DNA from: Longitalea arenae
Lineage (GTDB): Bacteria; Bacteroidota; Bacteroidia; Chitinophagales; Chitinophagaceae
Reading direction: 5' to 3'
DNA: 64,000 nucleotides
Assembly: GCF_016924755.1 (NCBI RefSeq)
Contig: NZ_JAFFJX010000002.1
Location: 1-64,000 of the forward strand
In this document: positions 12,243-43,469 of the stretch, one piece after another
Layout of the letters: every line of letters starts with the position of its first letter
Position numbering within the stretch: the stretch's first letter is position 1
Notes under the pieces: generated by a model
What the model saw: only the letters and a program-made list of their open reading frames with translations
Databases searched by the model: none
What the model was told of the DNA's origin: nothing
Position numbers and translations under genes: made by a program

Positions 12243-12261
12243 ATCAGTCCTTTTAAGGGAG

Positions 12262-12298: not shown

Positions 12299-12304
12299 TC
12301 GATT

Positions 12305-15420: not shown

Positions 15421-15458
15421 TCCATCTATTATTTAATATTTTGGATTCAAACCTCAAA

Positions 15459-18628: not shown

Positions 18629-18817
18629 ACACTACGCGTTTAATTTTTATAAATCTTTATTTAGATGATCAATTTTTACGTTCTGTGAAAAAACCGCCGG
18701 CCGGCTGCCGGCATGCCACCACAAGATGCATAATAAATTCAGGCGGGCTGTCCTGCACTTACCTTTAACCCGTTTGCCTGTGCTTATCCAGTGCGCTGAC
18801 AACCAGCGGGTAAAATA

Positions 18818-22785: not shown

Positions 22786-22852
22786 CAAGTGTACACAGAT
22801 ATTTAAACCCACCGAAACGAATAAGGAATTTTATTTACGCAAACGTTACCGG
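22786..22852 (-). promoter_or_regulatory. LacI-type operator/promoter module upstream of the GH28 gene
   Basis: On the minus strand the candidate -7 element TACACTTG (22786-22793) is preceded by ATATCT (22797-22802). Further upstream is the operator-like CCGGTAACGTTTGCGT (22837-22852) with its central CpG at 22844-22845. The distance from the CpG to the -7 T is 51 bp, the same as in the modules at 36630 and 42224. GCAAACGTT resembles half-sites bound by LacI/PurR-family proteins. The remainder of the 734-bp gap to the SusD gene shows only word repeats and a short CCCCTAAGGGG palindrome near 22970. Confidence 0.6.
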
Positions 22853-23142
22853 CAACGATAACATACCAGACGGGAAATAAAATGCTGGCAATCAACGTAA
22901 ATTACCCAGAACCATACCCCTTTACGCGACTGCCAGCAAGAAGATACCCCATTCCCGTAACCCCCCTGACCCCCTAAGGGGAAAGGAAATACTAGGAGCA
23001 GGGATTTATACTTTTAAATGAGTGTGTTTTTAACATTTAATTGACTGAAGCTTTTTCGTGGCTCAAAAACAGGTGGGCAGAAACTCCTAAACTGCCCACC
23101 CTCGAAACCCACTGCATTTCTATTGAACACATCAGAGCATAT

Positions 23143-23190
23143 AGACAATTGACAACAGGCAACAGGCAACAGGCAATTGGCAATTGGCGA
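23143..23190. repeat. Word repeat, CAACAGGCAACAGGCAATTGG type
   Basis: Tandem words GACAATTGACAACAGGCAAC and CAGGCAATTGGCAATTGG run head to tail. They share the CAATTGG vocabulary of the repeats at 34226, 46590 and 59700. Confidence 0.6.
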
Positions 23191-23274
23191 TCATTCGATC
23201 GTCTGCAAAACCAATTGGCCATCATGCAAGGCTGGTGGCCGCCACTCGCCAATCCCCTTCCGGGGGTTGGCGGG

Positions 23275-24972
23275 TTACTGATACCCCTCATTCTGCATAA
23301 ACTCCCCTTTATTGGTAACCGCATCCAGCTGTGATTGCGGAATAGGCCGTACTATATGAAATGCTTTTACATACTGGGCGGCATCAGGGTTCAGGTTTTT
23401 TATGCGATCGATCAGTTTATTCGTGCGTTTCAGGTCGAACCAGCGCAATTGCTCCCCGGCCAGCTCGCGTGCCCGCTCATCGAGTATAAAGTCGAGCGTT
23501 ACCTGCGCAGCGGTGATCTCCATCGCGCTTTCCCTGCCGGGATGTGCAGCACGGCGGCGAATGGCGTTGAGGTAAGTGACTGCCTGATCTGGTTTATTGA
23601 GCTTGAACTGGGCTTCAGCAGCGATCAGGTACATTTCGGCCAGCCTGATCACAAACACATCGCGAACGCTTTGCGCTTCATTAAAGGAAGCCCGCGTTGA
23701 ATCCTTAAATTTTTTCAGCGATACATAAAACCTCCGCTGGGTGGGAATACCCGTAGTCGCATTATATACGCGTGACATATCGTAGGTCGTATACCGTTTG
23801 GCATTCATGTCTGTAACGGAAAGGGTATTCTTGGAAGTAAAGCAGACGGTATCGCCCACTTTAAAATTGTTGGTATCTTTTGAATTAAAAGTATTGCCAG
23901 CAGCCCGCGCTTCTTTATTGCAATACCACACCGTTTGAAAAGAAGCCTCATAACGGCTATCGTCGTTCTCGTTGAACATGTTCAAAAACGCTTTCGTAGG
24001 CATATACCGGTTGAAAGGCCGCCCATTGGGGATATCCCGCTGCAGGATGGCGGAGTTCACCTGGTCATATACCTGCAGGAATAACATGTGACCATTGTTG
24101 CTGCCGCGGCTATGCCCCGTGGGAAAAGCAGATGTGGCAAGATCATTATTCGACAAATTGGTAGAATAGTCAACAGCCCAGATCACTTCCTTATTTTTCA
24201 AATTGCCCATATTCCACAGATCGGCATAGCGGGCCGCCAATTGATAGCCATAATTTTTGATAACATCATCGGCCATGGCGAACGCCTGTTCGTTCATGCC
24301 CCGGGTGAGGTACATGCGCGCCAGGAAAGCTTTTGCTACCGGGATGGTAGCGCGGCCATAATCACCGGAAGTTTTTGGCAGATTCTTCACCGCAAAATCA
24401 AGGTCGGCGAAGATCTGCGTGTAAAACTGATCAACCGGGGTTTTATTGGCAGTTGATTCAATCACACCGGGCGGTGTTGCCATGGTAGTGAAATGAACGC
24501 CACCCCAGGTCTCTACGATATGCCAGTAATAGAAGGCACGTAAAAAGCGCAGCTCCGCTTCCCGGGTTGTTTTCTGGGCAGCGGTATAGTCGGCCACCTC
24601 CCCTACTTTGGCAATGCCGTCGTTACATAAATAAATGGCTGCATAAAAATTATCCCATTCCAGGTTGAGGGCCGCGGTGTTACTGCCCTGCAGGTTATCA
24701 TAACGTGATAATTGCGGGAAAACATCCCCGGTACCATTGGTCCAGATATCGGTACCCATTTCTGATAAACTGTAGCCTTCTTCTTTTCCATACCAGTACC
24801 GGGTATATGTGTATGCTGCATTTACCAGCGCATCAAAACCTTTTGCACTTGTATAGGTAGCTTCGGGCGTCAATCCGCTGGGATTATATTCAGTTAATTT
24901 TTTATCGCAGGAGGTAAATACCACAGCACCGGTCAGCGCTAAAGACAATACGGTATTTATTGTACGTTTCAT
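23275..24972 (-). CDS. SusD/RagB-family glycan-binding outer-membrane lipoprotein (pair 1)
   Basis: A 566-residue lipoprotein. The start is set at MKRTINTVLSLALTG, which gives a lipoprotein signal with the cysteine in VFTSC. A longer open frame begins 14 codons earlier, inside the SusC stop region. Typical SusD features are the N-terminal helical TPR part (LRFLRAFYYWHIVETWGG near residue 115) and the C-terminal WFDLKRTNKLIDRI and MQNEGY. It binds glycan at the cell surface as the lid of the adjacent SusC. It lies 31 bp after susC and has no clear terminator beyond an imperfect GC-rich hairpin just past the stop. Confidence 0.93.
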   Translation of the reverse strand: MKRTINTVLSLALTGAVVFTSCDKKLTEYNPSGLTPEATYTSAKGFDALVNAAYTYTRYWYGKEEGYSLSEMGTDIWTNGTGDVFPQLSRYDNLQGSNTAALNLEWDNFYAAIYLCNDGIAKVGEVADYTAAQKTTREAELRFLRAFYYWHIVETWGGVHFTTMATPPGVIESTANKTPVDQFYTQIFADLDFAVKNLPKTSGDYGRATIPVAKAFLARMYLTRGMNEQAFAMADDVIKNYGYQLAARYADLWNMGNLKNKEVIWAVDYSTNLSNNDLATSAFPTGHSRGSNNGHMLFLQVYDQVNSAILQRDIPNGRPFNRYMPTKAFLNMFNENDDSRYEASFQTVWYCNKEARAAGNTFNSKDTNNFKVGDTVCFTSKNTLSVTDMNAKRYTTYDMSRVYNATTGIPTQRRFYVSLKKFKDSTRASFNEAQSVRDVFVIRLAEMYLIAAEAQFKLNKPDQAVTYLNAIRRRAAHPGRESAMEITAAQVTLDFILDERARELAGEQLRWFDLKRTNKLIDRIKNLNPDAAQYVKAFHIVRPIPQSQLDAVTNKGEFMQNEGYQ

Positions 24973-25003
24973 ATTCAAATATTGATTCACTAATGAATAA
25001 GAT

Positions 25004-28000
25004 TTAGAACTCAAGATTGATTCCGGTAACGATCAATTTGGTCAACGGCCTGTCAAATGAACCTTCCCCTTCCGGATCATAATCTTTCTCCTTCGCAAAT
25101 GTGAAATAGTTCTTGGCGCTTACATACCAGCGCAGGCTGCTCACGTGGAACCGTTGGGTAAGTGTTTTCGGCAGCGTATAACCGAGGGTGATATTCCTGA
25201 TCTTTACGAAAGAACCGTCTTTGTAACCGAGGGTGGTTGCAAATGGCATGGAGGCTCTTGAAATATTGATATTCGGCCGCGGATAATCATTGGTCGGGTT
25301 TTCCGGTGTCCAGTAATTAACATTGGCGCCATTCTCAATGGCATTGGGCTCAAACTTGTTGGCGTAGTCAGAAACGAAGGTTTGTCCAACCCGGGCAAAA
25401 ACATAGATATTCAGATCAAAATTCTTATAGCTGATATCATTGCTGAAGCCGAGGGTGTAATCAGGAACGGCTGAACCTATTACTGTGCGGTCGTAAGTAG
25501 CATCCAACTTCCCATCGGGCTGGCCTTTATCTCCGCTGAGGTCGGCTACCCGGATATCACCGGCCTTATAGCCAAAACTTCTGGCTAAAGCAGTATCTGC
25601 GGTTTGCCAGATCCCTTCTTTCTTAAAGTCGTAGAACGATTTCACCGGGTGGCCGATGAACAGGCCGCTGGCAATATCATTTTTTCCGTTTGCCAGTTCG
25701 GTGATGCGTTCTTTATTACGTGTATAGGTAATAGCGCTGGTCCAGGTGATCTGCTGGTTCTGCACGTTCACGGTACGTAACTGGATCTCGATCCCATTGT
25801 TACGGGTCTTACCCACATTCTCTACCACTTTGGTATGGCCCGATGAACCTGGTAAGGGACGCAGCAACAAGAGGTCACGGGTTCTTGAATCATAATAATC
25901 AACACTGGCGCTGAGGCGGTTCTTGAACAGACCGAAATCTAACCCGATGTTCTGCGTACCGGTCAACTCCCATTTCAGGTTGCGGTTACCGTTCTGCGGA
26001 TCATAGCCATAAGCGATCATACTTACATCGTTCCATGAATGTGGAATAAGGATCAATCCGCTGTTCGTTGAATAGGGTTTCACGGCCGCATTACCCGCCA
26101 CACCATAACTGGCGCGCAGCTTCAGGTCGCTGAACAGGTTCTGACTGGCCATAAAATTTTCATCGATGATACGCCAGGCAACCGCTGCAGATGGGAAGAA
26201 AGACCAGCGGTTCTCTTTTAACAATACGGAAGAACCGTCGGCGCGACCGGTAAGGGTCAACAGGTATTTTCCTTTGAAATTATAGTTTAACCGAAGGGCG
26301 CCCGATAAGAGGTTGCTGCCAATATAATTACTCCAGATATTAATGTTGCTTGGGTTGCTCAGCAGCGCATGCCATGACTGGCCGGGAATGATCTGTCCGG
26401 TACCCTGCGAATAAGCGCTGTCGGTCTTGTTAGATAAATAGCTGGTGACGGCCGTCACATCCAGTCCATGGTCACCGAACTTTTTATTCCAGGTAATGAT
26501 GTTTTCCCAGATAAGGTCGGCCTGGGTAGCGTTGGTCACTTTTGCCAGCGAGCCTGTTGAAGTAAAGCGGGTAATGGTATTTTCTCCCAGGAACAGACCA
26601 TTGCGGCTGCTGCTGTTGGTTATACCCAGGTTCGAGCGAAGGGTAAGGCTTGGGAAAGGTTTCCATTCTGCATAGGCAGAAGATAAAATGCGGGTGGTAT
26701 TGGTCTCATTGATATAAGCCCCCGGCAATTCTTCCAACAAGGGGTTAACCTGGTTGGCATTGCCGGGAATTCTTATAATTGAACCGTCCGGGTTATAAGG
26801 TGTAAAATAAGGTATCACTTTATTGGCTACGTTGAGAATATTGTCGGTACGCCGGTTCTCATCATAATATGTCAACTGGCTTTGCAATCCCACCTTGAAG
26901 GTGCCTATAATGGTTTGATCGATGTTCAGGCGTAAGGTATAGCGGCCGGAAAAATCATTGTTGAGAATACCTTTTTCTTTAAAGTAATCGAAAGAGAAGA
27001 AGACTTTTGTTTTTTCACTGCCTGCGGCCACATTAATGCCATAGTCCTGCTGTGAACCATCCTGTAACAGCAGTCCTGGCCAGTAAGTAGACTGGCCACT
27101 GGTGGCGGCAGCCAGGTCGGCCTTAAATACATTGGGATCATCTGCCGGTGAGTTCCAGGCGCCGGCGGTGCGGCTGGCCTGCCGTTTCAGTTCGGCATAT
27201 TGCGGACCGTTCATCGGCTCGGGATAACCAGCTACTTCACTTATTCCATAATACGCATTCGCACCTACCCGTACTTTTCCGGAAGCGCCTCTTTTAGTAG
27301 TAATGATAACTACGCCATTAGCGCCGCGTGAACCATAGATAGCGGTAGAGGACGCATCTTTCAATACCTCCATGGATTGGATATCGTTGGGGTTGATGTC
27401 CTGGAAGTTGGCATACTGAATGCCATCAACGATAAATAAAGGGGTATTCTGCGCCAGTACCGACCTGTTACCTCTAACAGTGATATTCACGTTAGAACCC
27501 GCGCCACCGCTGGTGCGGGTGATATCAACTCCCGCCACTTTACCCTGTACGCTTTCCATGACGTTACCCGCGGGCACTTTTTTCACTTCATCGCCTTTGA
27601 GCGACACAACAGCCCCGGTAAGATCTCTTTTCTTTACCGTACCATAACCGATCACCACAATGTTCTCGAGGCTGGAGGCTGCTGAGGCCAGCGACAGCGT
27701 GATCATTGTTTTGTCGCCTACTTTTATTTCCTGTGACTCGTAGCCTACATAGGAAAATACAAGCACATCGTTTTCGTCGGCCATTAATGTAAACACCCCC
27801 TGCTCATTGGTGGTGGTGGCCTTTGTTGTGCCTTTTATGGTTACTGTTACGCCCGAGAGCGGAGCTCCGTTTGGGTCAGTGATCTTACCCGTAACCTTTT
27901 TTTCCACAGCACGGGTTCCTTCATTGATCACTATAAGGCCGTTGGCCATGAAACGGTAGGTAAGTATAGTTTGGGAAAACAAATTGTCGAGCGCCTGTTT

Positions 28001-28270
28001 AATATCAACGTTTTCAAGGTTGATGGTCACCTTTTGCCGGATGGCCGGCAGCTGGTTGTTATACAGGAACCGATAGTGTGTCTGCTTTTCAATATTGATC
28101 AAAATACCAGCGATCTCGGCATTTTTATACTTGAGATCCAGCTTATTCTGGCCGAATCCCTTCGCCGACACCTGCAGCACACCAACAAGCAGTAAGAAAG
28201 TAGTTATTTTCATAACAAGCAGCGCATTGGAAAGCAACGGGTTTTTTCCGCCCGTTCTAAAACTTTTCAT
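25004..28270 (-). CDS. SusC/RagA-family TonB-dependent transporter with STN domain (pair 1)
   Basis: A 1088-residue outer-membrane transporter. After the signal peptide (cleavage near VSAKGFGQ) come an STN domain at about 45-115, a carboxypeptidase-regulatory beta-sandwich at 125-190, the plug (GTVKKRDLTGAVVSL; DPTA-like LKDASSTAIYGSRGANGVV near 305-325), and the barrel ending GINLEF. The STN domain usually contacts a FecR anti-sigma factor, and a sigma/FecR pair lies directly upstream. It should import pectin oligosaccharides with its SusD partner. The first methionine is used; a second possible start lies 19 codons downstream. Confidence 0.94.
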   Translation of the reverse strand: MKSFRTGGKNPLLSNALLVMKITTFLLLVGVLQVSAKGFGQNKLDLKYKNAEIAGILINIEKQTHYRFLYNNQLPAIRQKVTINLENVDIKQALDNLFSQTILTYRFMANGLIVINEGTRAVEKKVTGKITDPNGAPLSGVTVTIKGTTKATTTNEQGVFTLMADENDVLVFSYVGYESQEIKVGDKTMITLSLASAASSLENIVVIGYGTVKKRDLTGAVVSLKGDEVKKVPAGNVMESVQGKVAGVDITRTSGGAGSNVNITVRGNRSVLAQNTPLFIVDGIQYANFQDINPNDIQSMEVLKDASSTAIYGSRGANGVVIITTKRGASGKVRVGANAYYGISEVAGYPEPMNGPQYAELKRQASRTAGAWNSPADDPNVFKADLAAATSGQSTYWPGLLLQDGSQQDYGINVAAGSEKTKVFFSFDYFKEKGILNNDFSGRYTLRLNIDQTIIGTFKVGLQSQLTYYDENRRTDNILNVANKVIPYFTPYNPDGSIIRIPGNANQVNPLLEELPGAYINETNTTRILSSAYAEWKPFPSLTLRSNLGITNSSSRNGLFLGENTITRFTSTGSLAKVTNATQADLIWENIITWNKKFGDHGLDVTAVTSYLSNKTDSAYSQGTGQIIPGQSWHALLSNPSNINIWSNYIGSNLLSGALRLNYNFKGKYLLTLTGRADGSSVLLKENRWSFFPSAAVAWRIIDENFMASQNLFSDLKLRASYGVAGNAAVKPYSTNSGLILIPHSWNDVSMIAYGYDPQNGNRNLKWELTGTQNIGLDFGLFKNRLSASVDYYDSRTRDLLLLRPLPGSSGHTKVVENVGKTRNNGIEIQLRTVNVQNQQITWTSAITYTRNKERITELANGKNDIASGLFIGHPVKSFYDFKKEGIWQTADTALARSFGYKAGDIRVADLSGDKGQPDGKLDATYDRTVIGSAVPDYTLGFSNDISYKNFDLNIYVFARVGQTFVSDYANKFEPNAIENGANVNYWTPENPTNDYPRPNINISRASMPFATTLGYKDGSFVKIRNITLGYTLPKTLTQRFHVSSLRWYVSAKNYFTFAKEKDYDPEGEGSFDRPLTKLIVTGINLEF

Positions 28271-28367
28271 ACATTAGTATTATTATGGGTTAAGAAATCA
28301 CTTCCCCTTCCCGCCTGCCAGCGGGATCGCGGAGAAAACAACACCGAAAAATTTAACCTGTAATGCG

Positions 28368-28400
28368 CGGAGAATGCTGCCAACATTCTCCGTTTTTTTT
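28368..28400 (+). terminator. Plus-strand terminator-like hairpin between fecR and susC
   Basis: CGGAGAATG at 28368-28376 pairs with CATTCTCCG at 28384-28392, followed by eight T on the plus strand. Both flanking genes are on the minus strand, where the hairpin is preceded by A and not followed by T. It may end an antisense transcript or act as a leader hairpin. Confidence 0.5.
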
Positions 28401-28418
28401 GGTTACGTAGGATGCATA

Positions 28419-29513
28419 TTATTGAATCGATTTTATAAAAACCTCATTATTGTTGATCGATACATTGAACGGGACAGCTGCTTTCAGGGCCATAAAAGCC
28501 TGTTCAACGGTTTCATTCTGCAGCGAACCATTAAATACCAGCTGCCTGGCTGCCTCATCTTCAAAATAGATCCTGATATTATACCATCTTTCCAGCTTCA
28601 GGGCCAGCTGTTCGAAATTGTCGCCGCGGAACTCGAGCCGGTTATATACCCAGGCTGTTTCCAGATGTTCATGCTCGGCTGCCGTGCTGTCAATACGAAT
28701 GATCTGCGGTGGCGCTGGCGGCGTATTTGTCGTGCTGGTTTTCGCCCCGGCTTCTGCCAGAAAGCTGCTGGCGGGCAACACGATCTTTTCATTCGGATGC
28801 AGGTAAACAGGTTTATTGCTCGCATCCCCTTTGCGGGTTATTTGTACCAGCCCCCGGATCAGGGTTGTTTCAATTATTTTTTCCTCGGGATACGATTTCA
28901 CATTAAAGGCGGTACCCAGCACCTTGATATCGATGCTTCCGGCATGAACAATAAATGGCTTTTTCTGATGCGTAGAAGCCGAGGTGACCGTTACCACATC
29001 AAAATACGCTTCGCCTTCGAGGGTGATCTCGCGCACCGGACCACTGAAATTCGCATACACAATGCGGGAACCTGCATTCAACCATACGGTTGACCCATCG
29101 GGCAGAATGGTGCGGGTTTTACTTCCTTTAGGGGCCACCACTTCATTAGCCGCAAGGGCTTGCTGTTTCCGGTTCCAGCTGGTAAAAAACCAGGTCCCGA
29201 TCGCCAGCGCCGCTACTATTGCGGCAGCCCAGTATATTTTCCTTCTTTTTTTGAGAGGTACAACAGGAGCGCCCGGGTGCGACAAAGCCGTTTCTGCTGC
29301 CGACAATTGCAGGATGCGATTGATCTTATCTCCATGCCCCGTTTCTTCAGACGCGGATGTATTTACCGACCATAACTGGTGCAGCATTTCATATTGCTGC
29401 ATCAGTTCGGGATGTTGCTGCAATAAGCTGTTCAGTTCTTCTTTATCCTGTTCAGTAATATCCCCGCTCAAACTGCGAGACAGCAAAAACCAAATTCTTT
29501 CGGGTGTTTCCAT
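28419..29513 (-). CDS. FecR-family anti-sigma factor
   Basis: A 364-residue inner-membrane protein. A cytoplasmic N-terminal domain (about 1-90) would bind the sigma factor. A single transmembrane helix (KIYWAAAIVAALAIGTWFF, 92-110) follows. The periplasmic FecR domain (about 125-240, GSKTRTILPDGSTVWLNAGS) and a C-terminal STN-contacting DUF4974 domain (about 290-362) complete it. It transmits substrate occupancy of the STN-containing SusC to the ECF sigma factor encoded just upstream. Layout and length are standard for the Bacteroidota family. Confidence 0.93.
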   Translation of the reverse strand: METPERIWFLLSRSLSGDITEQDKEELNSLLQQHPELMQQYEMLHQLWSVNTSASEETGHGDKINRILQLSAAETALSHPGAPVVPLKKRRKIYWAAAIVAALAIGTWFFTSWNRKQQALAANEVVAPKGSKTRTILPDGSTVWLNAGSRIVYANFSGPVREITLEGEAYFDVVTVTSASTHQKKPFIVHAGSIDIKVLGTAFNVKSYPEEKIIETTLIRGLVQITRKGDASNKPVYLHPNEKIVLPASSFLAEAGAKTSTTNTPPAPPQIIRIDSTAAEHEHLETAWVYNRLEFRGDNFEQLALKLERWYNIRIYFEDEAARQLVFNGSLQNETVEQAFMALKAAVPFNVSINNNEVFIKSIQ

Positions 29514-29617
29514 TTTCGCCTGGTGCGTTTATGTTTATAAGGACAGGCTTTTTTGAAAAGACCATTAAGGCTTTTAGAAAAATATTTTTCAAACCTGAAC
29601 GTGAGGTGACATAAGGA

Positions 29618-29735
29618 GTAATGTGCTGATATGCTAATGTGCTGATGAGCTGACTCGCTATTGAATACAAAGACCATTCGGCCAGGCAAGGCCTCGCCGG
29701 GATTCACCATAAACCATTCACCATTGACCATTCAC
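29618..29735. repeat. Word repeats between sigma factor and fecR genes
   Basis: AATGTGCTGATATGCTAATG words at 29619-29655 are followed by a GC-rich palindromic part (GGCCAGGCAAGGCCTCGCC, about 29680-29698). ATTCACCATAAACCATTCACC words then run at 29700-29735. Two vocabularies used elsewhere in the window meet here around one GC-rich centre. Confidence 0.6.
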
Positions 29736-30319
29736 GACTGCTTCCTGGTGGTTATTTCAAACCCCCTGGCAGCGCGGTTGACCTGCAGTTCGGAACAGAT
29801 CTTTTTGATGGCGATGGCCATTTGCACATCGACGGTATTGACGGAAATATTGAGGATCTCGGCTACTTCACGGTGCTTGAGGCCGTCTTCACGCACCAGT
29901 TTGAAGATCATTTTACAACGGGGTGGTAAATTATCAACTGCCTGTTGCATGCGTTTCATCATCTCGGCAGTGACCAGCAGGTTATAGGGATCAGAAACTA
30001 CCTGGCCCGCTTCGATGTCAAGATCATCGAAAGGGGCCCTGATCAACTCAGTGGCTTTTTGCGAGATCGCGTTCAGGGACCTGTTCTTTACGGCAACATA
30101 TAAATATACGGTGAGATTCTCTACTTCGTTTATGCGCTGGCGGTTGCTCCACAATTTTACAAAAACATCTTCCACTATTTCTTCAGCTATTTCGGGCGAG
30201 CGGGTAATGGCCCGGGCAAAATGATGCAGGCGTTTGCTGAATAACCGGTACAGCTCAGCCAGACATTGTTCATTTCCGGCATATATACCTTGCTGAATAT
30301 GTGGCAGGCTAATGGTCAT
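29732..30319 (-). CDS. ECF RNA polymerase sigma factor (Bacteroidota sigma-70 type)
   Basis: A 195-residue sigma factor with region 2 (FARAITRSPEIAEEIVEDVFVKLWSNR, about 33-60) and region 4 (LPPRCKMIFKLVREDGLKHREVAEILNISVNTVDVQM, about 130-168). It pairs with the FecR protein encoded 218 bp downstream and should direct transcription of the STN-type SusC/SusD pair. It follows a GH43 gene with a hairpin in between, so it may have its own promoter. Confidence 0.92.
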   Translation of the reverse strand: MTISLPHIQQGIYAGNEQCLAELYRLFSKRLHHFARAITRSPEIAEEIVEDVFVKLWSNRQRINEVENLTVYLYVAVKNRSLNAISQKATELIRAPFDDLDIEAGQVVSDPYNLLVTAEMMKRMQQAVDNLPPRCKMIFKLVREDGLKHREVAEILNISVNTVDVQMAIAIKKICSELQVNRAARGFEITTRKQS

Positions 30320-30378
30320 ACTTTTTCAATAAGCAATCAATCGGCGATAAATGTAGTCAATTTTTGGAAATAATGAAA

Positions 30379-30426
30379 GCGCCATGCCGGCTGCCGCCAA
30401 AAACGACAGCCATCCAAACATGGCGC
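30379..30426 (-). terminator. Hairpin after the GH43 gene
   Basis: GCGCCATG at 30379-30386 pairs with CATGGCGC at 30419-30426, with inner GGCTG/CAGCC. On the minus strand it is followed by TTTCATTATTT. It probably reduces read-through from the GH43 gene into the sigma-factor gene. Confidence 0.5.
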
Positions 30427-30445
30427 ACACTTTATTCCTTTACAA

Positions 30446-32050: not shown

Positions 32051-32065
32051 TTATAGTCGGTTTCT

Positions 32066-32205
32066 TATCGTGAATGGTGAATGCCCGCCCGACTAAACGT
32101 CGTTCGGGCGGGGTCAATGGTCAATGGGACGATTAACTTTATCAACTCTGGCAAATTTTTCAACTCGTCAACTGCTCAACTAGTCAACTGGTCAACTCAT
32201 CTCAA
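32066..32205. repeat. Two word-repeat blocks with a GC palindrome, between GH43 and pectinesterase genes
   Basis: Words TGAATGGTGAATG and GGTCAATGGTCAATGGG flank the palindrome CCCGCCCGA ... TCGGGCGGG at about 32086-32114. A second block at about 32147-32203 repeats CAACTCGTCAACTGCTCAAC and CTAGTCAACTGGTCAACTC. Together they fill the 146-bp gap and run to the pectinesterase stop codon. Confidence 0.65.
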
Positions 32206-33180: not shown

Positions 33181-33203
33181 AACTAAGATTATATTGGGAA
33201 TGC

Positions 33204-33281
33204 TGGTAGCTAGTGGTATATGGCTTGCAAAACTTATGTTCGAAGCTCGCTTCTTTCCTTGCCTTCCCCACTTGCCACTAG
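33204..33281. repeat. Word repeat, GGTAGCTAGTGG / CCACTAGCTA type
   Basis: GCTGGTAGCTAGTGG near the left end faces the complementary words CACTTGCCACTAGCTA at the right end, with CGAAGCTCGCTTC between them. It is a further, shorter case of the dyad word pattern, adjoining the esterase stop codon. Confidence 0.5.
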
Positions 33282-34196: not shown

Positions 34197-34225
34197 GCAA
34201 TGATATTTGATACTTAAGTTAGTCA

Positions 34226-34331
34226 ATGGGCATAACAGACAATGGGCAATTGGCAATAGACAATATACAATATGCAATATGCAATTGGCAATTGGCAATC
34301 GACAATAGACAATATGCAATGGGCAATTGCT
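34226..34331. repeat. Word repeat, CAATTGGCAATAGACAATATG type
   Basis: About 100 bp consist of variants of the words CAATGGG, CAATTGG, CAATAGA and CAATATG. The block fills the gap between the esterase gene and the CE12 gene. The first 15 bp downstream of the CE12 stop codon belong to it. Confidence 0.75.
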
Positions 34332-34339
34332 TATTGGTT

Positions 34340-35074
34340 TTATTTTCTCACCCGCGCTGCCAGTTCGAGGCCGAGGCTTTTAATATTTTTAAAAACTATT
34401 TGCGCAATGACCCGGGCGCCGAGTTCATTGAAGTGGGTATTATCTTCTTTTCCGTTTGGATAGTTCGGGTGCTCGCCGGGCGCCAGGTGATTGAACAATA
34501 ATTTGGACTTCTCAACACCCCATTGCTGCATCAATGCCTGTGCTTCCCTATCGAGGTCGATCAATGGCACTTTGTTTTCGTTGGCCACGTCACGCACAAT
34601 TTGAGCATAGATGTCGTGGGTTCCTGCAATATGGCCGGTGGAATCGAAATTGCGGCGCGCCACCGGTGTCAATAAAACCGGTGTGGCTTTCTTACTGCGG
34701 GTATCGGATATATATTTAAGGAGGTTCGCTTTGAATTGCGCTTCTGTCGTATAACTTTTCTTTGTCTTCACCTCATCATTATGGCCAAATTGAACGAATA
34801 CATAATCGCCTTCCTGCAGGGCAGCCACTACGGGCGCCCAGCGGTTCTCTTCCATAAAGGTTCTGGTACTGCGGCCATTTTGTGCGCGGTTATCAACGGT
34901 TACCGTTGAATCGAAAAAATAGCCAAAGGGCATGCCCCAGCCATGCTCCGGATAGGCTTTGATCTCCTTGTTGGCCATAGTAGAATCGCCGATCAACCAG
35001 ACCGTGATCTTTTTTTGGGGAGGCAGCGCAAACGCTGTCAGTATTAATGATGCAATAACTATCCACCTTTTCAT
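34340..35074 (-). CDS. Rhamnogalacturonan acetylesterase (CE12, SGNH hydrolase)
   Basis: A 244-residue secreted enzyme with a short signal peptide (MKRWIVIASLILTAFA). SGNH blocks are GDSTMANK (nucleophile serine), AQNGRSTRTF, FGHND and DNTHFNELGA (catalytic Asp/His). These match the CE12 family, which removes acetyl groups from rhamnogalacturonan I. It lies 107 bp downstream of the pectate lyase gene in the same direction. Confidence 0.9.
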   Translation of the reverse strand: MKRWIVIASLILTAFALPPQKKITVWLIGDSTMANKEIKAYPEHGWGMPFGYFFDSTVTVDNRAQNGRSTRTFMEENRWAPVVAALQEGDYVFVQFGHNDEVKTKKSYTTEAQFKANLLKYISDTRSKKATPVLLTPVARRNFDSTGHIAGTHDIYAQIVRDVANENKVPLIDLDREAQALMQQWGVEKSKLLFNHLAPGEHPNYPNGKEDNTHFNELGARVIAQIVFKNIKSLGLELAARVRK

Positions 35075-35181
35075 TGCTGTTTATTTATACCCGTATTTAC
35101 TTTTCAGTTTTATCAAGCGGTTAACCGTGGCCTGGTTAGAAACCATGTCACCATTCTCTACCTATCAACTTTATACATGCA

Positions 35182-36618
35182 TCACTTCCCCAATCCATTA
35201 ATATACATTTCAATATTAGTATACTGTTTATCGAGTTTGTAACCGGCTGCATCGCCGGCATCGGCCGGGTTTAATTTATGTTTGATTTCCCAGGCATCGG
35301 GCATGCCATCCTGGTCTTTATCTGCCGCTGCAGGCGTTGATTGCAAGCCCGGCCATGCATTCACGGTGGCTTCATACGGCGTTCCATGCTGATAACCGCC
35401 CTGCACATCAATCAAGCGGCCGGTGCGGTTCTTTACATCGTTGACGATGCGGGCATCGAGGGTATCACGATTCGGCAAACTGCAACCCACATGTTTCAAT
35501 ACCAGTTCATAGGCATCCTGGGCTAACTGTGTTGTTACCGGCACAATGGTAAAAGGAGCTGTAGCTTTGGCAAGCGCAGGATCGTCGCCCATCTTGCTAT
35601 TGCCCAAACGTACGCCCAACCAGTTGTTGCTGGTCACTTCCTTTGAACCATCGACATAATTCCCCTCTACAAAAAATTTACCGTAAGAGATCCCAGGCGG
35701 TTTGCTCCAGGGATTCACCACCTGGTGCATTACGTTCTTATGGGTGTTGGGCCCGTACTTGTAGTAATTGTTTACAACATTATAATTGCCCCCTTCGCCG
35801 GCATATACATTATTACCGCCCCAGTTGTAGATCACATTATTGCGATAATCTACATTTTCATCCGGCATTTGCCGGGTACCATTGAAGCGCGGGTTACGGC
35901 TGTTACAATGCGCGAAGAGATTATGATGCGCTGATAAATGTTTTCCGCCCCAGATACCACCATAACCATGGCGTTCAAAGTCTTTATCGCCCGCTTCAAA
36001 ATGATAGCTGTAGTTCAATGGTTCTGCAATGAGATTCCATTGCAAGGTAGTACTGTCGCCGTTATACACAGAGAACACTTCGTCGGTGCTCCAGCTCATA
36101 GAGCAATGATCGATGATAATATTTTTCCGGCGGGTTCCGCCAAAAGCGTCATCACTTCCGCTGCCATCGACCATACCGCCCCGCTGGTTCTTATCACCCA
36201 TCCGAAAACGCAGGTAGCGGATGATAATGTTATCACCGGCCAGTGCCACCGGATGGTCGGCTAAACAAATACCATCACCGGGCGCTGTTTGCCCGGCAAT
36301 GGTTGCGTTACCCTTTATCTCAAGCTTTGATTGCAGGTGTATAGTGCCCGAAACCGCAAATACGATGATGCGCGGTTCTTTGGCCTGAACGGCTTTGCGG
36401 AAACTGCCGGGGCCATCGTCATTCAGTGTGGTTACCACGAACACTTTACCCCCGCGGCCTCCGGTAGTATACTGACCGAAGCCTTCCGCACCGGGAAAGG
36501 CAAGCGGCTGTGCCCCGAGGTCAGCGAACAGAATTAAATGAAGAATTACCAGCATGATCTTCCGGTTCACATGGCGATCCTGGCTGGCTTGCTTACAGAA
36601 TAACAATCGTTTTATCAT
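35182..36618 (-). CDS. Pectate lyase (PL1-like)
   Basis: A secreted right-handed beta-helix protein beginning the mature part PLAFPGAEGFGQYTTGGRGG. Lyase-type blocks are IIIDHCSMSWSTDE near residue 170 and RNPRFNGTRQMPDENVDYR near 245, where the arginine is the probable base. A C-terminal DKDQDGMPDAWEIKH calcium-loop segment is common in Bacteroidota pectate lyases. The start is uncertain. The outermost ATG (36618) would leave a leader of only a few nucleotides from the proposed promoter, whereas the in-frame ATG at 36555 gives a leader of about 70 nt and a compact signal peptide (MLVILHLILFADLGAQ). It should produce unsaturated oligogalacturonides for the GH105 enzyme. Confidence 0.87.
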   Translation of the reverse strand: MIKRLLFCKQASQDRHVNRKIMLVILHLILFADLGAQPLAFPGAEGFGQYTTGGRGGKVFVVTTLNDDGPGSFRKAVQAKEPRIIVFAVSGTIHLQSKLEIKGNATIAGQTAPGDGICLADHPVALAGDNIIIRYLRFRMGDKNQRGGMVDGSGSDDAFGGTRRKNIIIDHCSMSWSTDEVFSVYNGDSTTLQWNLIAEPLNYSYHFEAGDKDFERHGYGGIWGGKHLSAHHNLFAHCNSRNPRFNGTRQMPDENVDYRNNVIYNWGGNNVYAGEGGNYNVVNNYYKYGPNTHKNVMHQVVNPWSKPPGISYGKFFVEGNYVDGSKEVTSNNWLGVRLGNSKMGDDPALAKATAPFTIVPVTTQLAQDAYELVLKHVGCSLPNRDTLDARIVNDVKNRTGRLIDVQGGYQHGTPYEATVNAWPGLQSTPAAADKDQDGMPDAWEIKHKLNPADAGDAAGYKLDKQYTNIEMYINGLGK

Positions 36619-36629
36619 ACATCCAATGT

Positions 36630-36696
36630 CAATTCTAGTGAGATATTTTGTTAAATGACCGATTCAGCGTTCCTTTTTCTATGCAAACGTTCCCGG
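36630..36696 (-). promoter_or_regulatory. LacI-type operator/promoter module upstream of pectate lyase
   Basis: Minus-strand order is operator CCGGGAACGTTTGCA (36682-36696), ATATCT (36641-36646) and -7 element TAGAATTG (36630-36637). The operator CpG at 36688-36689 is 51 bp from the -7 T. The module is nearly identical in sequence and identical in spacing to the one before susC2. Confidence 0.65.
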
Positions 36697-36704
36697 AACT
36701 CGTT

Positions 36705-36750
36705 CATAGTTCACAGTTCTAAGTTCTAAGTACTCAGTTCTAAATTGCCT
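36705..36750. repeat. Word repeat, AGTTCTAAGTTCTAAGTACTC type
   Basis: Tandem variants of AGTTCTAAGT lie just upstream of the pectate lyase operator. They use the same vocabulary as the repeat at 125-197. Confidence 0.55.
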
Positions 36751-36802
36751 AGATGCAGGTTCCCACGTACTGGTTGCAAACTGAAGTGAAGCAAAGCAAA
36801 AT

Positions 36803-36886
36803 GTGCCACACCTTTGGGCATGACACATTCAGCTTAACAGTTAAGCAGTATTTGAACAGCGGTGCGATACTTTGAAAGTGTGGCAC
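36803..36886 (-). terminator. Long-range hairpin after susD2
   Basis: GTGCCACAC at 36803-36811 pairs with GTGTGGCAC at 36878-36886. An inner stem GCTTAA/TTAAGC with a 3-nt loop lies in the middle. On the minus strand it follows the SusD stop by 15 bp and is followed by ATTTTGC. It is a possible terminator or 3'-end stabilising structure of the susC2-susD2 mRNA. Confidence 0.45.
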
Positions 36887-36900
36887 TCCTTAATGCCGCG

Positions 36901-38715
36901 TTATTGATAACCCGGATTTTGCGACAACCTTCCCTGGTAAGCAGAAAGTGTTGCCTGATCGAAGGGGAACAACTCACTTTTACCTGTTTGAAAAAAGCTG
37001 GCCATGCCTGCGCTCAGCGGCCTGTTATCGATAACGTTTGTAGACAAATAAGTTCTCCACGGCAATGCATTCCAGGTGCCCGATGCAGGTTTCTGTTTCG
37101 GCTGCCAGAAAGGTTGCGCTGTTTGAGCGGTATTGGCACCGGCATAGAATTGTATTTCTTCACCCACGTTCCGCCAGTAAATGGTATCCGGCACATTGGC
37201 ATACCTGCCGGCGCCCGTTCTGATCTGCTCTATCTTAGTTCTTGCCTCACTGAGTTTATTAGCCAGTTGTCCCCACCGTAAGAGATCAAATTTCCGGATG
37301 CCTTCATGGCCAAACTCAAGGTAGCGCTCATTGTCCAGCGCAGCAAAGAAACCTGCTTTATCAGTGGGTGTAGTACCGATCATATTGATATTGCCGCGGT
37401 ATGCTCTTTTTCTCACTTCTTCAAAAGCGGCGATGGCCGCTGCGGTGGGACCATTATTCAATTCATTCACCGCTTCTGCATACATCAGCAATACGTCTGA
37501 AAAACGGATCATGACCCAATTATAACCCACATTCAACACCGTACCGGGTAATAGCGGCACCCGCCAGTCGCGCCGGTATTTGCCGGTATTCAATTCATTC
37601 AGGCGGCGCATCGATTTTATATTGTTGGCCGATGGCACCTGGTACCAGGTAACGGTAACATCGCGCCGCGTATCTACGGAATCAAATGCATAAAAATAAT
37701 TGGGCAGCATAATAATGCCACCACCTCCGGCGCCATAACGCGAAGCGTTGTTGAGGTTGGGACCGTCATAATTCCCCATGCGGCTGTCACTGTTGCCGTT
37801 ACCGCCGCCGGCGCCTACTTCGAACAAGATCTCACCCTGCGGATCATAGGTAAATGAGGTTACGTTCCGCCAGATATTTTCAAAGTTGGGATTGAGGGTA
37901 TGCTGGTCGCGGCGCGCCATCAGGTCTTCACACTCCTTTCTCGCTATCTCGTAATATGTAAGGTAATCGCTGCGGCGTTCGATCTGGCCATTGTTGCGCA
38001 ATGCATAGCCACCCCTGAACAAAGCGATTCTTGCCCGCAATGCCTTGGCCGCCCCTTTGGTGATGCGTTCATTGCGCGCCACCTCTGTACGCCATGGGAG
38101 GAGCTCGATAGCGGTAGCCAGGTCGTTCAACAACTTGTCATAGGTAGAATCACGATCACTGCGGCCGATAAACAGATCGGGCTGCTGATAGGCAGGAACC
38201 ATCGGCGCGGGTACATCACCCCAGTTGCGGATCAGCTCAAAAAAGAATTGCGCCCGCAATGTAAGCGACTCGCCATACAAGCGTTGTAATTCTTTCTTCT
38301 CGCTGTCTGTTCCCTCGGTATACAATCTCATTTGCGGGATCTGTTCAATACAGAGATTGGCTTTTTCGACCCCGCGGTATAACTGCCGGAAAGGATTGGA
38401 GATCTCGGAATTCGTGAGCAATAATTGATAACGGCCAATACCCCGGCGGCCATTGTCGATATTCCCGCTTACGATGCCTTCATCGGAATCATAAGGATAA
38501 TACATGCTGACGCGAATGCCATAGCCGTTATCACCCTGCAGTTCATCATACACGCCGATAACTGCCATGAACGCATTGGGCACATCGGTAAATACTTCCG
38601 GGATGGTATAACCTGATTCAGGTTCTACTTCCGTATACTTTTTACATCCTGTTATGGTAAAGAGAATTACTATAATGGCGGCGCTGATCAATTGATACAA
38701 TCGTAAACATTTCAT
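36901..38715 (-). CDS. SusD/RagB-family glycan-binding lipoprotein (pair 2)
   Basis: A 604-residue outer-membrane lipoprotein with the lipobox cysteine in TITGC at about residue 24. SusD features are the helical N-terminal half (ESLTLRAQFFFELIRNWGDVP) and the C-terminal FDLLRWGQL and LSQNPGYQ. It lies 18 bp after its SusC partner. A glycine-rich insert near 305-330 (GAGGGNGNSDS, RYGAGGGG) is longer than usual for the family. It should present pectin fragments to SusC2. Confidence 0.92.
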   Translation of the reverse strand: MKCLRLYQLISAAIIVILFTITGCKKYTEVEPESGYTIPEVFTDVPNAFMAVIGVYDELQGDNGYGIRVSMYYPYDSDEGIVSGNIDNGRRGIGRYQLLLTNSEISNPFRQLYRGVEKANLCIEQIPQMRLYTEGTDSEKKELQRLYGESLTLRAQFFFELIRNWGDVPAPMVPAYQQPDLFIGRSDRDSTYDKLLNDLATAIELLPWRTEVARNERITKGAAKALRARIALFRGGYALRNNGQIERRSDYLTYYEIARKECEDLMARRDQHTLNPNFENIWRNVTSFTYDPQGEILFEVGAGGGNGNSDSRMGNYDGPNLNNASRYGAGGGGIIMLPNYFYAFDSVDTRRDVTVTWYQVPSANNIKSMRRLNELNTGKYRRDWRVPLLPGTVLNVGYNWVMIRFSDVLLMYAEAVNELNNGPTAAAIAAFEEVRKRAYRGNINMIGTTPTDKAGFFAALDNERYLEFGHEGIRKFDLLRWGQLANKLSEARTKIEQIRTGAGRYANVPDTIYWRNVGEEIQFYAGANTAQTAQPFWQPKQKPASGTWNALPWRTYLSTNVIDNRPLSAGMASFFQTGKSELFPFDQATLSAYQGRLSQNPGYQ

Positions 38716-38733
38716 ACGTCAATCTTTTTGTTT

Positions 38734-41700
38734 TTAGAAAGTGACATTTACACCAAAGACCCAGGTACGGGAACGCGGATAGGCGGCAAAATCAACACCC
38801 GGTGTTAAGGGATCGTTCCTGCGCGCCGTTACATCAGGATCATAGCCCGAATAACTCGTGAGCGTGGCCAGGTTATTCACGGTTGCATATACGCGCAAGG
38901 TTGACAGTTTAACTCTATTGATCACCGTTTTCGGTAATGAATAACCTACTGTGAGGTTGTTGATCCGCAAATATGAGCCATCTTCGACCGCCCAGCTGTG
39001 CAGCCACCAACGCTGTACCCGCACCGGGCTCCAGATCTTGGCATTTTCGTTCAATGCGGCCAGTTCCTTGGGATCTGTTACCCGTTGCCCGGCATCATTG
39101 ATCCAGGTGAACCGGTCTTTCATTATATTCAACATGTTCAGATTGGGAAAAGCGCCGTCGGTCCATTCAATTTTATTGGCATTATAAATATCATTGCCAT
39201 AAACAAAATTCACGAATATGCTCATGTCAAAACCCTTATAGGTAAGCTGGTTGTTCCAGCCTCCCGTAAATTTCGGATTGGCATCACCTATTACCACGCG
39301 GTCATAATCAGCCGTGATCTGGCCGTCGGGCTCGCCGTTGGGACCACTGATATCGCGCCACTTCAACATACCTGGTTGTGCAGGGCCGTATACGCCGTTA
39401 TTGGCAATGCCCGGCTTCAGGGTATAGGTTTGGTTGGCGGGATTGTAGTTGAAATCATCCACACTGAACATACCTTCGGTCACAAAGCCATACATAAGAC
39501 CGGCCGGCTCGCCTACTTTCACCAGGTAATCATCAACGCCATCGCTTCCCTGCCAGCCGGAGTTGCGGGTTATTTCATTTACGCCGCCCAGGCTTTCCAC
39601 TTTGTTCCTGTTGAATGAAATATTGAAGTTGGAATTCCAGGTAAAATCTTTTTTAGATATCGGAATAGCATTGATCTGGAATTCTACCCCGCGGTTAGAG
39701 GTAGCGCCCAGGTTCTGCAACTGGGTCGTATAACCCGTAGTCGGTGGAATGTTCACAGCCAGCAGCAGGTCTTTGGCCGTATTCTTATATACATCTACCG
39801 TAAACTGCAAACGGTTATTGAAGGCAGCCCAATCCATACCCAGGTTCATCGTGGTATTACGTTCCCAACGCAGATCGGGATTGCGCAGTGCAGTGGGCGC
39901 CACGCCGGGCTGAATAATATGATTGAACGCGTATTGACCGGTTACGCCATATAATTGCAGATACAGCAGGTTATCGATGCGGTTATTTCCCACTGATCCG
40001 TAGCCGAAACGGATCTTGGCATCGTTGAGCCAGGAGATATCTTTCATAAAGTCTTCCTGGCTAAAACGCCATGAAACCGAACCCGAGGGGAATATAAGGG
40101 TTCCGTTCTCTGATGCAAATTTCGAAGAGCGGTCGGCCCGCAGGTTAAATGTAGCTGAGTACTTATCATCAAACTCATAGCTGGCCCGGCCAAACCAGGA
40201 AAAAATGCGGCTGGGCGGCTGCGTAAAAGTCGTGGGCAATGGTTGCGTTGAACCGGGGGGCGCAGCGCCGGCGCCCATATTTTCCAGCGCTTTTTCGGCC
40301 GTAATATCCGATGGGAAAAAACGGGTCTCAAAGGCGCTTGTGCGCATGCGTTGGTCAATCACTTCCTGCCCTACCAGTACATTGATATCGTGTTTCTCCC
40401 TATAATTATTCAGCGTGTACTGCAGTACATTGGAGTTGCTCATGGTATTGTTGTTCTGCTCGCCGATGGATGCGACGGGCAATGAAGCAAAGTTGCGGGC
40501 AGTAGGCGTGATCTTACTGAAAAAAAGATCGGTCTGAATGGCTGCATTATCGTAGCCAAAGGTTGACCGGAAACTCAGGTTCTTTACAATGGTGTAATTA
40601 ATGAAACCGCTCAGGTAAGTAGCTTTTGTATATTGGCGGCGGTATTCGGCCCTGGTCAACAGCACCGGGTTAATGGCGCCGCTCGACGCCAGGAAATAGG
40701 CTTCATCAAAATCATCGATGCCACCGGCCGGTGTTGGCAATTCAAAAGGGCGATAGTTGATCGTATGCCGCAGGCGGTTGGTTGCGCGGGTACCGCTGTT
40801 GGTAGTACCGGCGCCCCGGATGGTTTGATCGAGGTAACGGGCATTAAAGCCTATCCTGAGTTTATCAGACGCTTTGTGCTCGAGCCTGAAGTTCACCAAC
40901 TTGCGGTCGAACCCTGATTCAATTAATATGCCGTCTTCCCGGTTGCTGGTGAGGCTTAAATTGAAGGTGGTGTTCTCGCTACCGCCGTTTAACGCCAGGT
41001 TCTGGTTATTGAACTTTGCCTTTTGGCCAAACACCTGATCTTGCCAGTTGATGGCCGGCAGTTCTTTATAAACATCTAGGGTATCCCAGGTGCTGCCATA
41101 GGTGCGCACAAAACTGATGCTGTCGTCGCGGTTACCACGGCTTCGTTCATATTGCCAGCGCACAAAATCATAAGGGCTCATTACATCCATGGTCTCGGGC
41201 AATTCACGCCAGCCGAAAGCGCCATTGTACGAGATCTGGGTTTTGCCTGCACGGCCGCCTTTGGTAGTAATGATCACTACCCCGTTCGCAGCACGGGCGC
41301 CATAGATAGCGGTGGTGGAAGCATCTTTCAGTACGTCAATGGAAGCAATCTCCTGTGGCGAGATCACACTCAGGGCGTTCTCTACCACTACCCCATCCAC
41401 AATATACAAAGGCGAATTGTCCTGCGTAATGGAACCACCGCCGCGTACCCGTACTACTACATCCGAACCGGGTGCGCCTTCCGTAGCAGTGACCTGAACC
41501 CCGGCCAGCCGGCCCTGCAGGGCTTCCGCAGCGGATGCCAGGGGTACATCTTTTATTTGCCTGGCAGCGATGGATGACACGGACCCGCTCACTTTACTAC
41601 GGGGAACGGTTTGATAACCGATCACCACTTCCTGCAGCGTGGTGGCATCCCGTTCCAATTGAATGCGCACGGGTGCATTTTCATCTGCGCTTATGGTTGT

Positions 41701-41937
41701 GGGTTTGAAACCAACACTAGACAATGTAAGGCTTACATTACCAGTGCCGGCTGCGGGAATGCTGAACTGGCCTTTGGCATCGGTTTGCACCGTGCGCCCG
41801 CCTTTCATCTGTACCGTAACATTCGGCAGCGGCGCTCCTTTATCGTCGGTGACCGTTCCCGTTATCTGCCGGGTTTGTGCCTGCAGCAGCAATGGAATAA
41901 ATAGTAGCAGTGCAAGTAATCGTTTTAATTTGCTCAT
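38734..41937 (-). CDS. SusC/RagA-family TonB-dependent transporter without STN domain (pair 2)
   Basis: A 1067-residue outer-membrane transporter. The start is placed at MSKLKRLLALLLF, giving a signal peptide ending LLQAQ; an upstream in-frame ATG adds nine polar residues. The mature protein begins directly with a carboxypeptidase-regulatory domain (QITGTVTDDKGAPLPNVTVQ). It continues with the plug (LKDASTTAIYGARAANGVV) and the barrel ending GVNVTF. Lack of an STN domain means it does not signal through FecR. Control by the divergent LacI-type regulator is the natural alternative. Confidence 0.94.
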   Translation of the reverse strand: MSKLKRLLALLLFIPLLLQAQTRQITGTVTDDKGAPLPNVTVQMKGGRTVQTDAKGQFSIPAAGTGNVSLTLSSVGFKPTTISADENAPVRIQLERDATTLQEVVIGYQTVPRSKVSGSVSSIAARQIKDVPLASAAEALQGRLAGVQVTATEGAPGSDVVVRVRGGGSITQDNSPLYIVDGVVVENALSVISPQEIASIDVLKDASTTAIYGARAANGVVIITTKGGRAGKTQISYNGAFGWRELPETMDVMSPYDFVRWQYERSRGNRDDSISFVRTYGSTWDTLDVYKELPAINWQDQVFGQKAKFNNQNLALNGGSENTTFNLSLTSNREDGILIESGFDRKLVNFRLEHKASDKLRIGFNARYLDQTIRGAGTTNSGTRATNRLRHTINYRPFELPTPAGGIDDFDEAYFLASSGAINPVLLTRAEYRRQYTKATYLSGFINYTIVKNLSFRSTFGYDNAAIQTDLFFSKITPTARNFASLPVASIGEQNNNTMSNSNVLQYTLNNYREKHDINVLVGQEVIDQRMRTSAFETRFFPSDITAEKALENMGAGAAPPGSTQPLPTTFTQPPSRIFSWFGRASYEFDDKYSATFNLRADRSSKFASENGTLIFPSGSVSWRFSQEDFMKDISWLNDAKIRFGYGSVGNNRIDNLLYLQLYGVTGQYAFNHIIQPGVAPTALRNPDLRWERNTTMNLGMDWAAFNNRLQFTVDVYKNTAKDLLLAVNIPPTTGYTTQLQNLGATSNRGVEFQINAIPISKKDFTWNSNFNISFNRNKVESLGGVNEITRNSGWQGSDGVDDYLVKVGEPAGLMYGFVTEGMFSVDDFNYNPANQTYTLKPGIANNGVYGPAQPGMLKWRDISGPNGEPDGQITADYDRVVIGDANPKFTGGWNNQLTYKGFDMSIFVNFVYGNDIYNANKIEWTDGAFPNLNMLNIMKDRFTWINDAGQRVTDPKELAALNENAKIWSPVRVQRWWLHSWAVEDGSYLRINNLTVGYSLPKTVINRVKLSTLRVYATVNNLATLTSYSGYDPDVTARRNDPLTPGVDFAAYPRSRTWVFGVNVTF

Positions 41938-42223
41938 ATGGCGACTCTTTAAGGTTAGAAACAACCAGGCATTCGATAAGCCTGGTAAGTATAGGCAATC
42001 GTTTATCCGGCAGACTTACAGTCTGTGGCAATATGTCGATCTTGTAATATGGGTACTTAATCAGGTTAAAAACTACGTCCCAGGCACATTCTGCTAATCA
42101 GAAGGATTCGGTAGCGTGCTTGCCGGCCATTCCGGGTTTACGAACCGGCAACAGGTAGCACAATATTCATTCCAGCGAACAATTTGTAGCAATAAATACA
42201 GGAGGCCTTCTAAAATTCTGATT

Positions 42224-42290
42224 CAATTCTAACGAGATATTTTTAAAAAATGCAATTTCCGCTCCCCTTTTTCTGTGCAATCGTTCCCGA
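42224..42290 (-). promoter_or_regulatory. LacI-type operator/promoter module between susC2 and lacI
   Basis: Minus-strand order is TCGGGAACGATTGCA (about 42276-42290), ATATCT (42235-42240) and -7 element TAGAATTG (42224-42231), with the CpG at 42282-42283 placed 51 bp from the -7 T. The remaining leader to susC2 is about 285 nt. It contains dyads TTGCCGG/CCGGCAA (about 42120-42160) and ACCAGGC/GCCTGGT (about 41966-41987). The operator also lies 75 bp before the regulator gene, so it could serve both directions. Confidence 0.65.
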
Positions 42291-42363
42291 AACTGATTTC
42301 ACCAGGGATATAGCGGCCTTTTAAAAAAAAGACTATTTTTAACGGCACTTTGCTGCCACCACT

Positions 42364-43407: not shown

Positions 43408-43469
43408 AGTGCGCAAATACTGTGGCCAAGATCAGTACATTTTTAACCGCGCTACGAACAGCTTTGACA

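Follow-up and report, generated by a model that had tools for sequence, protein, structure and literature searches.

Here we report that three promoters of a pectin locus in Longitalea arenae, a member of the Chitinophagaceae (Bacteroidota), share a composite module, in which a palindromic operator of the LacI type stands at a fixed distance upstream of an off-consensus -7 element. The modules lie on the minus strand of a 64,000-nucleotide stretch (assembly GCF_016924755.1, contig NZ_JAFFJX010000002.1, positions 1 to 64,000 of the forward strand; hereafter the window), and stand before susC2, a pectate lyase-like gene and the glycoside hydrolase gene GH28. The three modules probably constitute one regulon of the LacI-family protein encoded at 42364-43407, which would activate transcription from about -64 at promoters too weak to work alone. 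Comparison with other genomes supports, at the level of sequence, the operator, the fixed spacing, the off-consensus -7 element, the pectin gene content and the co-occurrence with the regulator. In the promoter numbering, -12 denotes the T that opens the -7 element, after Flavobacterium johnsoniae (PMC6847099, in excerpt); positions within the module are counted from the operator CpG.

Each of the three modules consists of an operator (CGGTAACGTTTGC, CGGGAACGTTTGC and CGGGAACGATTGC in modules 1 to 3), the motif AATATCT and a -7 element (TACACTTG, TAGAATTG and TAGAATTG, respectively; Table 1). In each of them, the first T of the -7 element lies 52 bp from the operator CpG, counted from its C. 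An original prediction from the same DNA had placed the modules exactly where we find them and had given one common distance of 51 bp, which holds when counted from the G. The three modules are the only exact matches to the operator core in the window, and with up to two mismatches the core is not enriched there (13 found vs 11.2 expected). The surrounding DNA had been said to differ; this is borne out for modules 1 and 2 and for modules 1 and 3, which share 3 and 6 of the 26 spacer bases (+16 to +41), and is weaker for modules 2 and 3, which may be partly related because 13 of the 26 bases are identical.

The motif search that had been suggested for this genome and its relatives was run with the strict pattern AACGWTTGCGTAAA-N24..54-TANNNTTG, which permits 31 spacings, against 195 genomes of Chitinophagaceae and a reversed control. 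It returned 124 matches in 77 genomes vs 3 in the control. The C-to-T distance was 52 bp in 87 matches, 53 bp in 20 and 51 bp in 4 (111 of the 124 at 51-53 bp), corresponding to gaps of 40, 41 and 39 in the pattern, and the other 13 matches were scattered over gaps of 26-33 and 48-51. Among 128 modules less than 80% identical to one another, taken from all fetched loci and counted with only 51-53 bp permitted, the distance was 52 bp in 104, 53 bp in 22 and 51 bp in 2. With 20-84 bp permitted, 56 of the 62 distances measured at 80 loci with a LacI relative, from named and titled records, were 52 or 53 bp. A module at 51-53 bp was found at 61 of these 80 loci, comprising 19 of the 30 labelled Sphingobacteriales and 42 of the 50 others. 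The former were chosen by genus name in the record titles; the lineages of Pedobacter and Niastella were looked up, and the placement of the other genera under this label is our assumption. In 104 non-redundant modules, every spacer position from +16 to +41 holds at most 0.48 bit, mostly less than 0.3. Because the spacer carries little information while the distance stays fixed, this sequence evidence points to function, rather than a common sequence, as what keeps the spacing, as the original prediction had proposed. Across the phylum, the strict pattern occurred in 14 of 395 genomes, 9 of them in the family, and among the 5 outside it a gap of 40 was found in one (G546). The strict operator thus appears to be mostly a family trait, and relaxed operators beside a LacI gene seem to reach into the Sphingobacteriales.

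The operator consensus derived from the 104 non-redundant modules, AtCGTTnYCGGgAACGATTGCGTAAAtAAA, spans about -17 to +15 around the CpG. It forms a wide palindrome centred between CC and GG, with two CpGs 12 bp apart, and is wider than the core first described. Its part AWCGTTnCCGGnAACGWT is an even palindrome with a central CG, the form looked for in a LacI-type operator. The left CpG is present in window copy 1 and lost in copies 2 and 3, and at the operator position the classic CGCAAACGTTTGCG occurs in the relative L080. Of the second operator-like sites found in a set of 126 modules, 18 lie at -11 in mirror orientation and 4 at -12 as direct copies. This layout would fit either one wide site or two overlapping sites. 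Overlapping LacI-family sites of the GntR type, about 13 bp apart, have been described upstream of 110 operons (PMC4052901, in excerpt). The module operator resembles them in its two CpGs 12 bp apart and its mirrored half-sites, and differs in that its right half-site is stronger and the pair stands upstream at a fixed place. In the L. arenae genome (7.28 Mb), GGnAACGWTTGC occurs 23 times vs 9 in the reversed control, and the extended operator with up to three mismatches 10 times vs 0. A one-base change of the operator, AACGWTTTCGTAAA, served as a negative control in 191 genomes and gave 8 matches vs 7 in its own control; since 4 of the 8 had a gap of 40, related operators were considered. Operators of the form AACGWTTHC gave 11 matches vs 3 in the control in the 191 genomes. 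The distance is exactly 52 bp in 6 of the 11, each of which has A or C at -8. Such operators stand 52 bp before TAnn[A/C]TTG at loci L176, L177, L179, L181, L281 and L284.

Analysis of the core promoter revealed that the module -7 elements lack the feature of promoters read by sigma-ABfr, the housekeeping sigma factor of Bacteroidota, namely TAnnTTTG with a near-invariant T at -8. In the 128 modules, the base at -8 is A or C in 125 and G occupies -10 in 79, with TAGACTTG (39), TAGAATTG (17), TAGCATTG (16) and the like as element types; the letters T, A, T, T and G at the remaining places were fixed by the search pattern. F. johnsoniae promoters almost always have T at -8 and practically never G at -10 (PMC6847099, in excerpt). 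Where a -33 TTTG would be expected, 23 to 21 bp ahead of the -7 T, the modules show weak T, T and T/C signals of 0.24-0.48 bit. The original prediction had counted a poor -33 region in favour of activation, but such a region is not special; in F. johnsoniae the -33 is likewise far less evident than the -7 (PMC6847099, in excerpt), and what sets the modules apart is a -7 element without T at -8. In the L. arenae genome, TTTG-N18-21-TANNTTTG was found 201 times vs 158 in the reversed control, and the form with A or C (TANNMTTG) 186 times vs 195. The ATATCT motif (about -21 to -16) probably belongs to the core promoter, because its position matches the AT-rich motif centred at -18 in ordinary F. 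johnsoniae promoters (PMC6847099, in excerpt). Its candidacy as a second operator was rejected; it lies within that AT-rich region and is only moderately conserved. Also rejected was a promoter of the extracytoplasmic function (ECF) type with GGAAC as its -35 element, since GGAAC lies about 50 bp from the -7.

The LacI-family protein has an N-terminal helix-turn-helix domain (PF00356, E 3.9e-14) and an effector domain (PF13377, E 9.3e-34). All 18 of its NCBIfam matches fall below the cut-offs, so no named LacI subfamily applies. It is 98% identical to a protein of Longitalea luteola and 95-97% identical to those of five Niastella species, and its relatives have the same module in their divergent promoter. 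Among 60 genomes, the strict module was found in 22 of the 26 with a close relative of the protein (picked by eye, E <= 2.3e-123) vs 4 of the 34 others (p 1e-8). This co-occurrence agrees with the predicted link between the LacI-type operator and the divergent LacI gene. A fixed promoter on the lacI side was also sought; in the interval from -80 to +260 relative to the operator, TAHHTTTG was present at 11 of 57 loci, 6 of which have it at -15, and there was no other common place. Elsewhere in the L. arenae genome (L093, around C33:241501), a LacI paralogue 57% identical to the protein lies near an operator-like AACGTTTGCCCAAATAAA, with TTAATTTG at +52.

The gene behind the module was examined for 78 modules (3 of the window, 17 from loci fetched by their LacI gene and 58 fetched by the pattern), a set from which exact duplicates alone were removed and which covers part of the 124 strict matches. 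The first downstream open reading frame (ORF) is susC2-like in 34, GH28 in 25, susC1-like, GH88 and a sigma factor in 3 each, UxaC and GDSL in 2 each, and pectate lyase-like and UxaB in 1 each. One further ORF listed under PME is a pectate lyase by NCBIfam, and 3 have no match, 2 of these being closest to kduD, just under the cut-off. The 58 modules found by pattern gave a similar range: susC2-like 22, GH28 20, GH88 3, sigma factor 3, susC1-like 2, UxaC 2, GDSL 2, UxaB 1, pectate lyase 1, kduD-like 1 and no ORF 1. The next gene after a module is nearly always a pectin or galacturonate gene, which supports the pectin promoters originally predicted. Neighbouring genes were surveyed for 8 of the 10 operator sites in the L. 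arenae genome (all but those on C33 and C36). Outside the window, operators precede a Pel9A-like gene and two Pectate_lyase_4 genes (C3, C6 and C22:686 kb); the site on C34 has a susC of opposite orientation nearby, and that on C39 a CoA-ligase gene.

The operator CpG is located at about -64/-63, wholly upstream of the core promoter and at a fixed position (52/53 bp from the -7 T). Such a position would favour activation over simple repression, as the original prediction had argued, and we favour activation because the promoter is weak at a key base and is coupled, at a single distance, to a site upstream of it. In the mechanism we propose, the LacI protein would bind the wide palindrome with the right CpG at about -64/-63 and, from this single fixed place, would recruit or stabilise RNA polymerase, probably by direct contact. 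The target promoters, with TAGA[A/C]TTG instead of TAHHTTTG, would be too poor to work unaided, and a pectin or galacturonate breakdown product would be the likely signal. Binding by the LacI protein, activation, polymerase contact, the sigma factor and the effector are what we infer here. More tentatively, and with less confidence than we have in the regulon itself, the modules might exemplify an activator-dependent promoter class in Chitinophagales and Sphingobacteriales, in which LacI proteins of more than one subfamily, bound at -64, would offset a -8 position without T; a repressor family would then have turned into a dedicated activator of polysaccharide use.

It is improbable, in our view, that the protein is an ordinary LacI-type pectin repressor, which would bind upstream, act by looping or by blocking polymerase contacts and be released by a sugar. 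Most LacI-family proteins repress, and the solved relatives of this one include PurR and LacI. Autorepression of lacI would also be possible because the operator often lies within about 60-220 bp of the lacI start, and 4 of the second operator-like sites fall at +74 to +86, just past the expected start, a position from which repression could be exerted. However, the operator stands wholly upstream of the core promoter at one fixed distance, and an off-consensus -7 element would be wasteful at a repressed promoter. In addition, the interval from +8 to +73, counted from the operator, contains none of the 37 second operator-like sites of the 126 modules; 22 of the 37 are the half-sites at -11/-12, and 5 lie beyond the +74 to +86 group. 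Another explanation is that an alternative sigma factor reads TAGA[A/C]TTG, with the LacI protein as co-activator. Specific substitutions, to G at -10 and to A or C at -8, do set the -7 element apart from one that has merely decayed, but the extended core AATATnTnnnTAGAnTTG is in no excess away from the operator; in 60 genomes it matched 21 times, 6 of these being modules, and the 15 others compare with 17 in the reversed control. On these motif counts, we regard this reading as highly improbable. That the promoter blocks were copied along with their genes, the spacing being kept by descent alone, is barely credible; it could account for the 13 of 26 spacer bases common to window copies 2 and 3, but the spacer is near background in the 104 modules less than 80% identical while the spacing is unchanged, the types of downstream gene differ, and the loci come from two orders.

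Several observations weigh against activation by the LacI protein from a fixed site, including the 4 sites at +74 to +86. In Escherichia coli, class I activation by CRP tolerates shifts by whole helical turns, and the single-position spacing here is stricter. The script used found no 51-53 bp module at 19 of the 80 named loci. Of the genomes in which the protein has a close relative, 4 have no strict module, and 4 genomes without a close relative have one. The relative in G044 is a 67% identical fragment at the edge of a contig, and this genome also has no strict module; it was left out of the 26 and counted among the 34, and its inclusion would give 22 of 27. At two of the three distant pectate-lyase-type genes of L. 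arenae there is only TAACTTT at +53, where the base at -8 is T, and at the third a clear -7 element is missing at that distance. Finally, the comparison with upstream TANNNTTG sequences that are not part of modules is weak. On the sense strand, 77 of 180 such sequences carry T at -8 and 14 carry G at -10; on the antisense strand, the counts are 53 and 17 of 169, so that most of these sequences are chance matches.

Table 1. Positions in the window of the three modules and of genes of the pectin locus
Feature	Position	Strand	Remarks
Operator, module 1 (upstream of GH28)	22830..22862	-	CpG at 22845-22844
AATATCT, AT-rich -18 region, module 1	22797..22803	-	conserved in family logo
-7 element TACACTTG, module 1	22786..22793	-	52 bp from operator C
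Operator, module 2 (upstream of pectate lyase-like gene)	36674..36706	-	CpG at 36689-36688
AATATCT, module 2	36641..36647	-	
-7 element TAGAATTG, module 2	36630..36637	-	52 bp from operator C
Operator, module 3, lacI-susC2 divergent region	42268..42300	-	CpG at 42283-42282
AATATCT, module 3	42235..42241	-	
-7 element TAGAATTG, module 3	42224..42231	-	52 bp from operator C
GH28, first gene after module 1	20894..22540	-	Pfam Glyco_hydro_28
Same-strand genes after GH28	10911..20758	-	Pfam, ORF list
Pectate lyase-like gene	35182..36618	-	PDB 9buj pectate lyase E 7.3e-72; NCBIfam PelZ E 6.5e-39, under cut-off
susC2 TonB-dependent receptor	38734..41964	-	Pfam Plug, TonB barrel
susD2	36901..38715	-	Pfam SusD_RagB
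LacI-family regulator, divergent from susC2, proposed pectin activator	42364..43407	+	Pfam LacI HTH, Peripla_BP_3

As judged from the ORF list and Pfam, the pectin locus occupies the minus strand of the window between about 42 and 10.9 kb. It comprises susC2, susD2, the pectate lyase-like gene (without a match in the Pfam search), a GDSL hydrolase, an esterase-type gene, a pectinesterase, GH43, a sigma factor, a FecR-type anti-sigma factor, susC1, susD1, GH28, GH88, a galacturonate route and an MFS transporter. The genes behind GH28 encode GH88, a mannitol-dehydrogenase type (UxaB-like), an altronate dehydratase type (UxaA-like), UxaC, a PfkB kinase (KdgK-like), a KDPG/KHG aldolase (KdgA-like) and the MFS transporter, the Uxa and Kdg names being interpretations of Pfam families. 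Given the gene order and the shared strand, the genes from GH88 to the transporter are probably read from module 1, and the GH28 promoter may thus also serve the galacturonate pathway. No operator was found upstream of the sigma-factor gene of the window (29732-30319, start 30319), either at up to two mismatches or by eye. In three other genomes a module precedes a sigma-factor gene, which is 70-73% identical to that of the window in two (L151 and L156) and 31% identical in L144; this arrangement suggests a LacI-to-sigma cascade there. Short tandem arrays of 7-bp units lie at or close to junctions between genes of the pectin locus (20774-20805, 23146-23183, 29702-29735, 34240-34329, 36702-36743 and 127-188). 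Most arrays have their own unit; the one directly upstream of module 2 has a unit type in common with that at 127-188. Downstream of lacI, a degenerate 41/82-bp tandem repeat rich in CCCCTGTTGTATTTTTT occupies 43465-43719.

A conserved LacI-family activator with strict geometry, if true, would add a one-component class to the control of polysaccharide loci in Bacteroidota, accounts of which usually centre on SusR-like regulators, on hybrid two-component systems and on ECF sigma factors (PMC7366714, in excerpt). It would allow pectin regulons to be predicted from sequence in many soil genera, and would offer a simple system for studying how an activator acts at the unusual Bacteroidota promoter. 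In the titles and abstracts of the open-licence literature, we found no report of this regulon, of the fixed spacing, of the altered -7 element or of a fixed-distance LacI-family activator in Bacteroidota.

Among known systems, CcpA of Bacillus is the nearest relative of the LacI protein with a solved structure, as judged by sequence (3oqm, E 9.1e-56). CcpA activates some genes from upstream sites; it is a global regulator that works with HPr-Ser-P, and it differs from the module system in its operator and its phylum. Cra (FruR) of E. coli and PckR of Rhizobiales, the latter by prediction, are dual regulators of the LacI family that activate some genes, the positive mode of PckR being predicted from site position (PMC4052901, in excerpt). 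Activation by a LacI-family protein, which had been called unusual, is therefore uncommon and yet not unknown. In contrast to Cra and PckR, which act on central carbon metabolism in Proteobacteria, the present case is one of pectin genes, of a single strict distance and of Bacteroidota promoters whose -7 element is altered. In Vibrio, an AraC-type activator carries a LacI-like sensor (PMC12125979, in excerpt). The Bacteroides regulators KdgR, UxaR and UxuR are predicted LacI-family proteins controlling galacturonate and glucuronate use; the excerpt of PMC3878776 lists them under monosaccharide use and mentions neither fixed spacing nor activation. LacI-family activation itself is already known, and what appears new here is the pectin regulon, the fixed distance and the altered -7 element.

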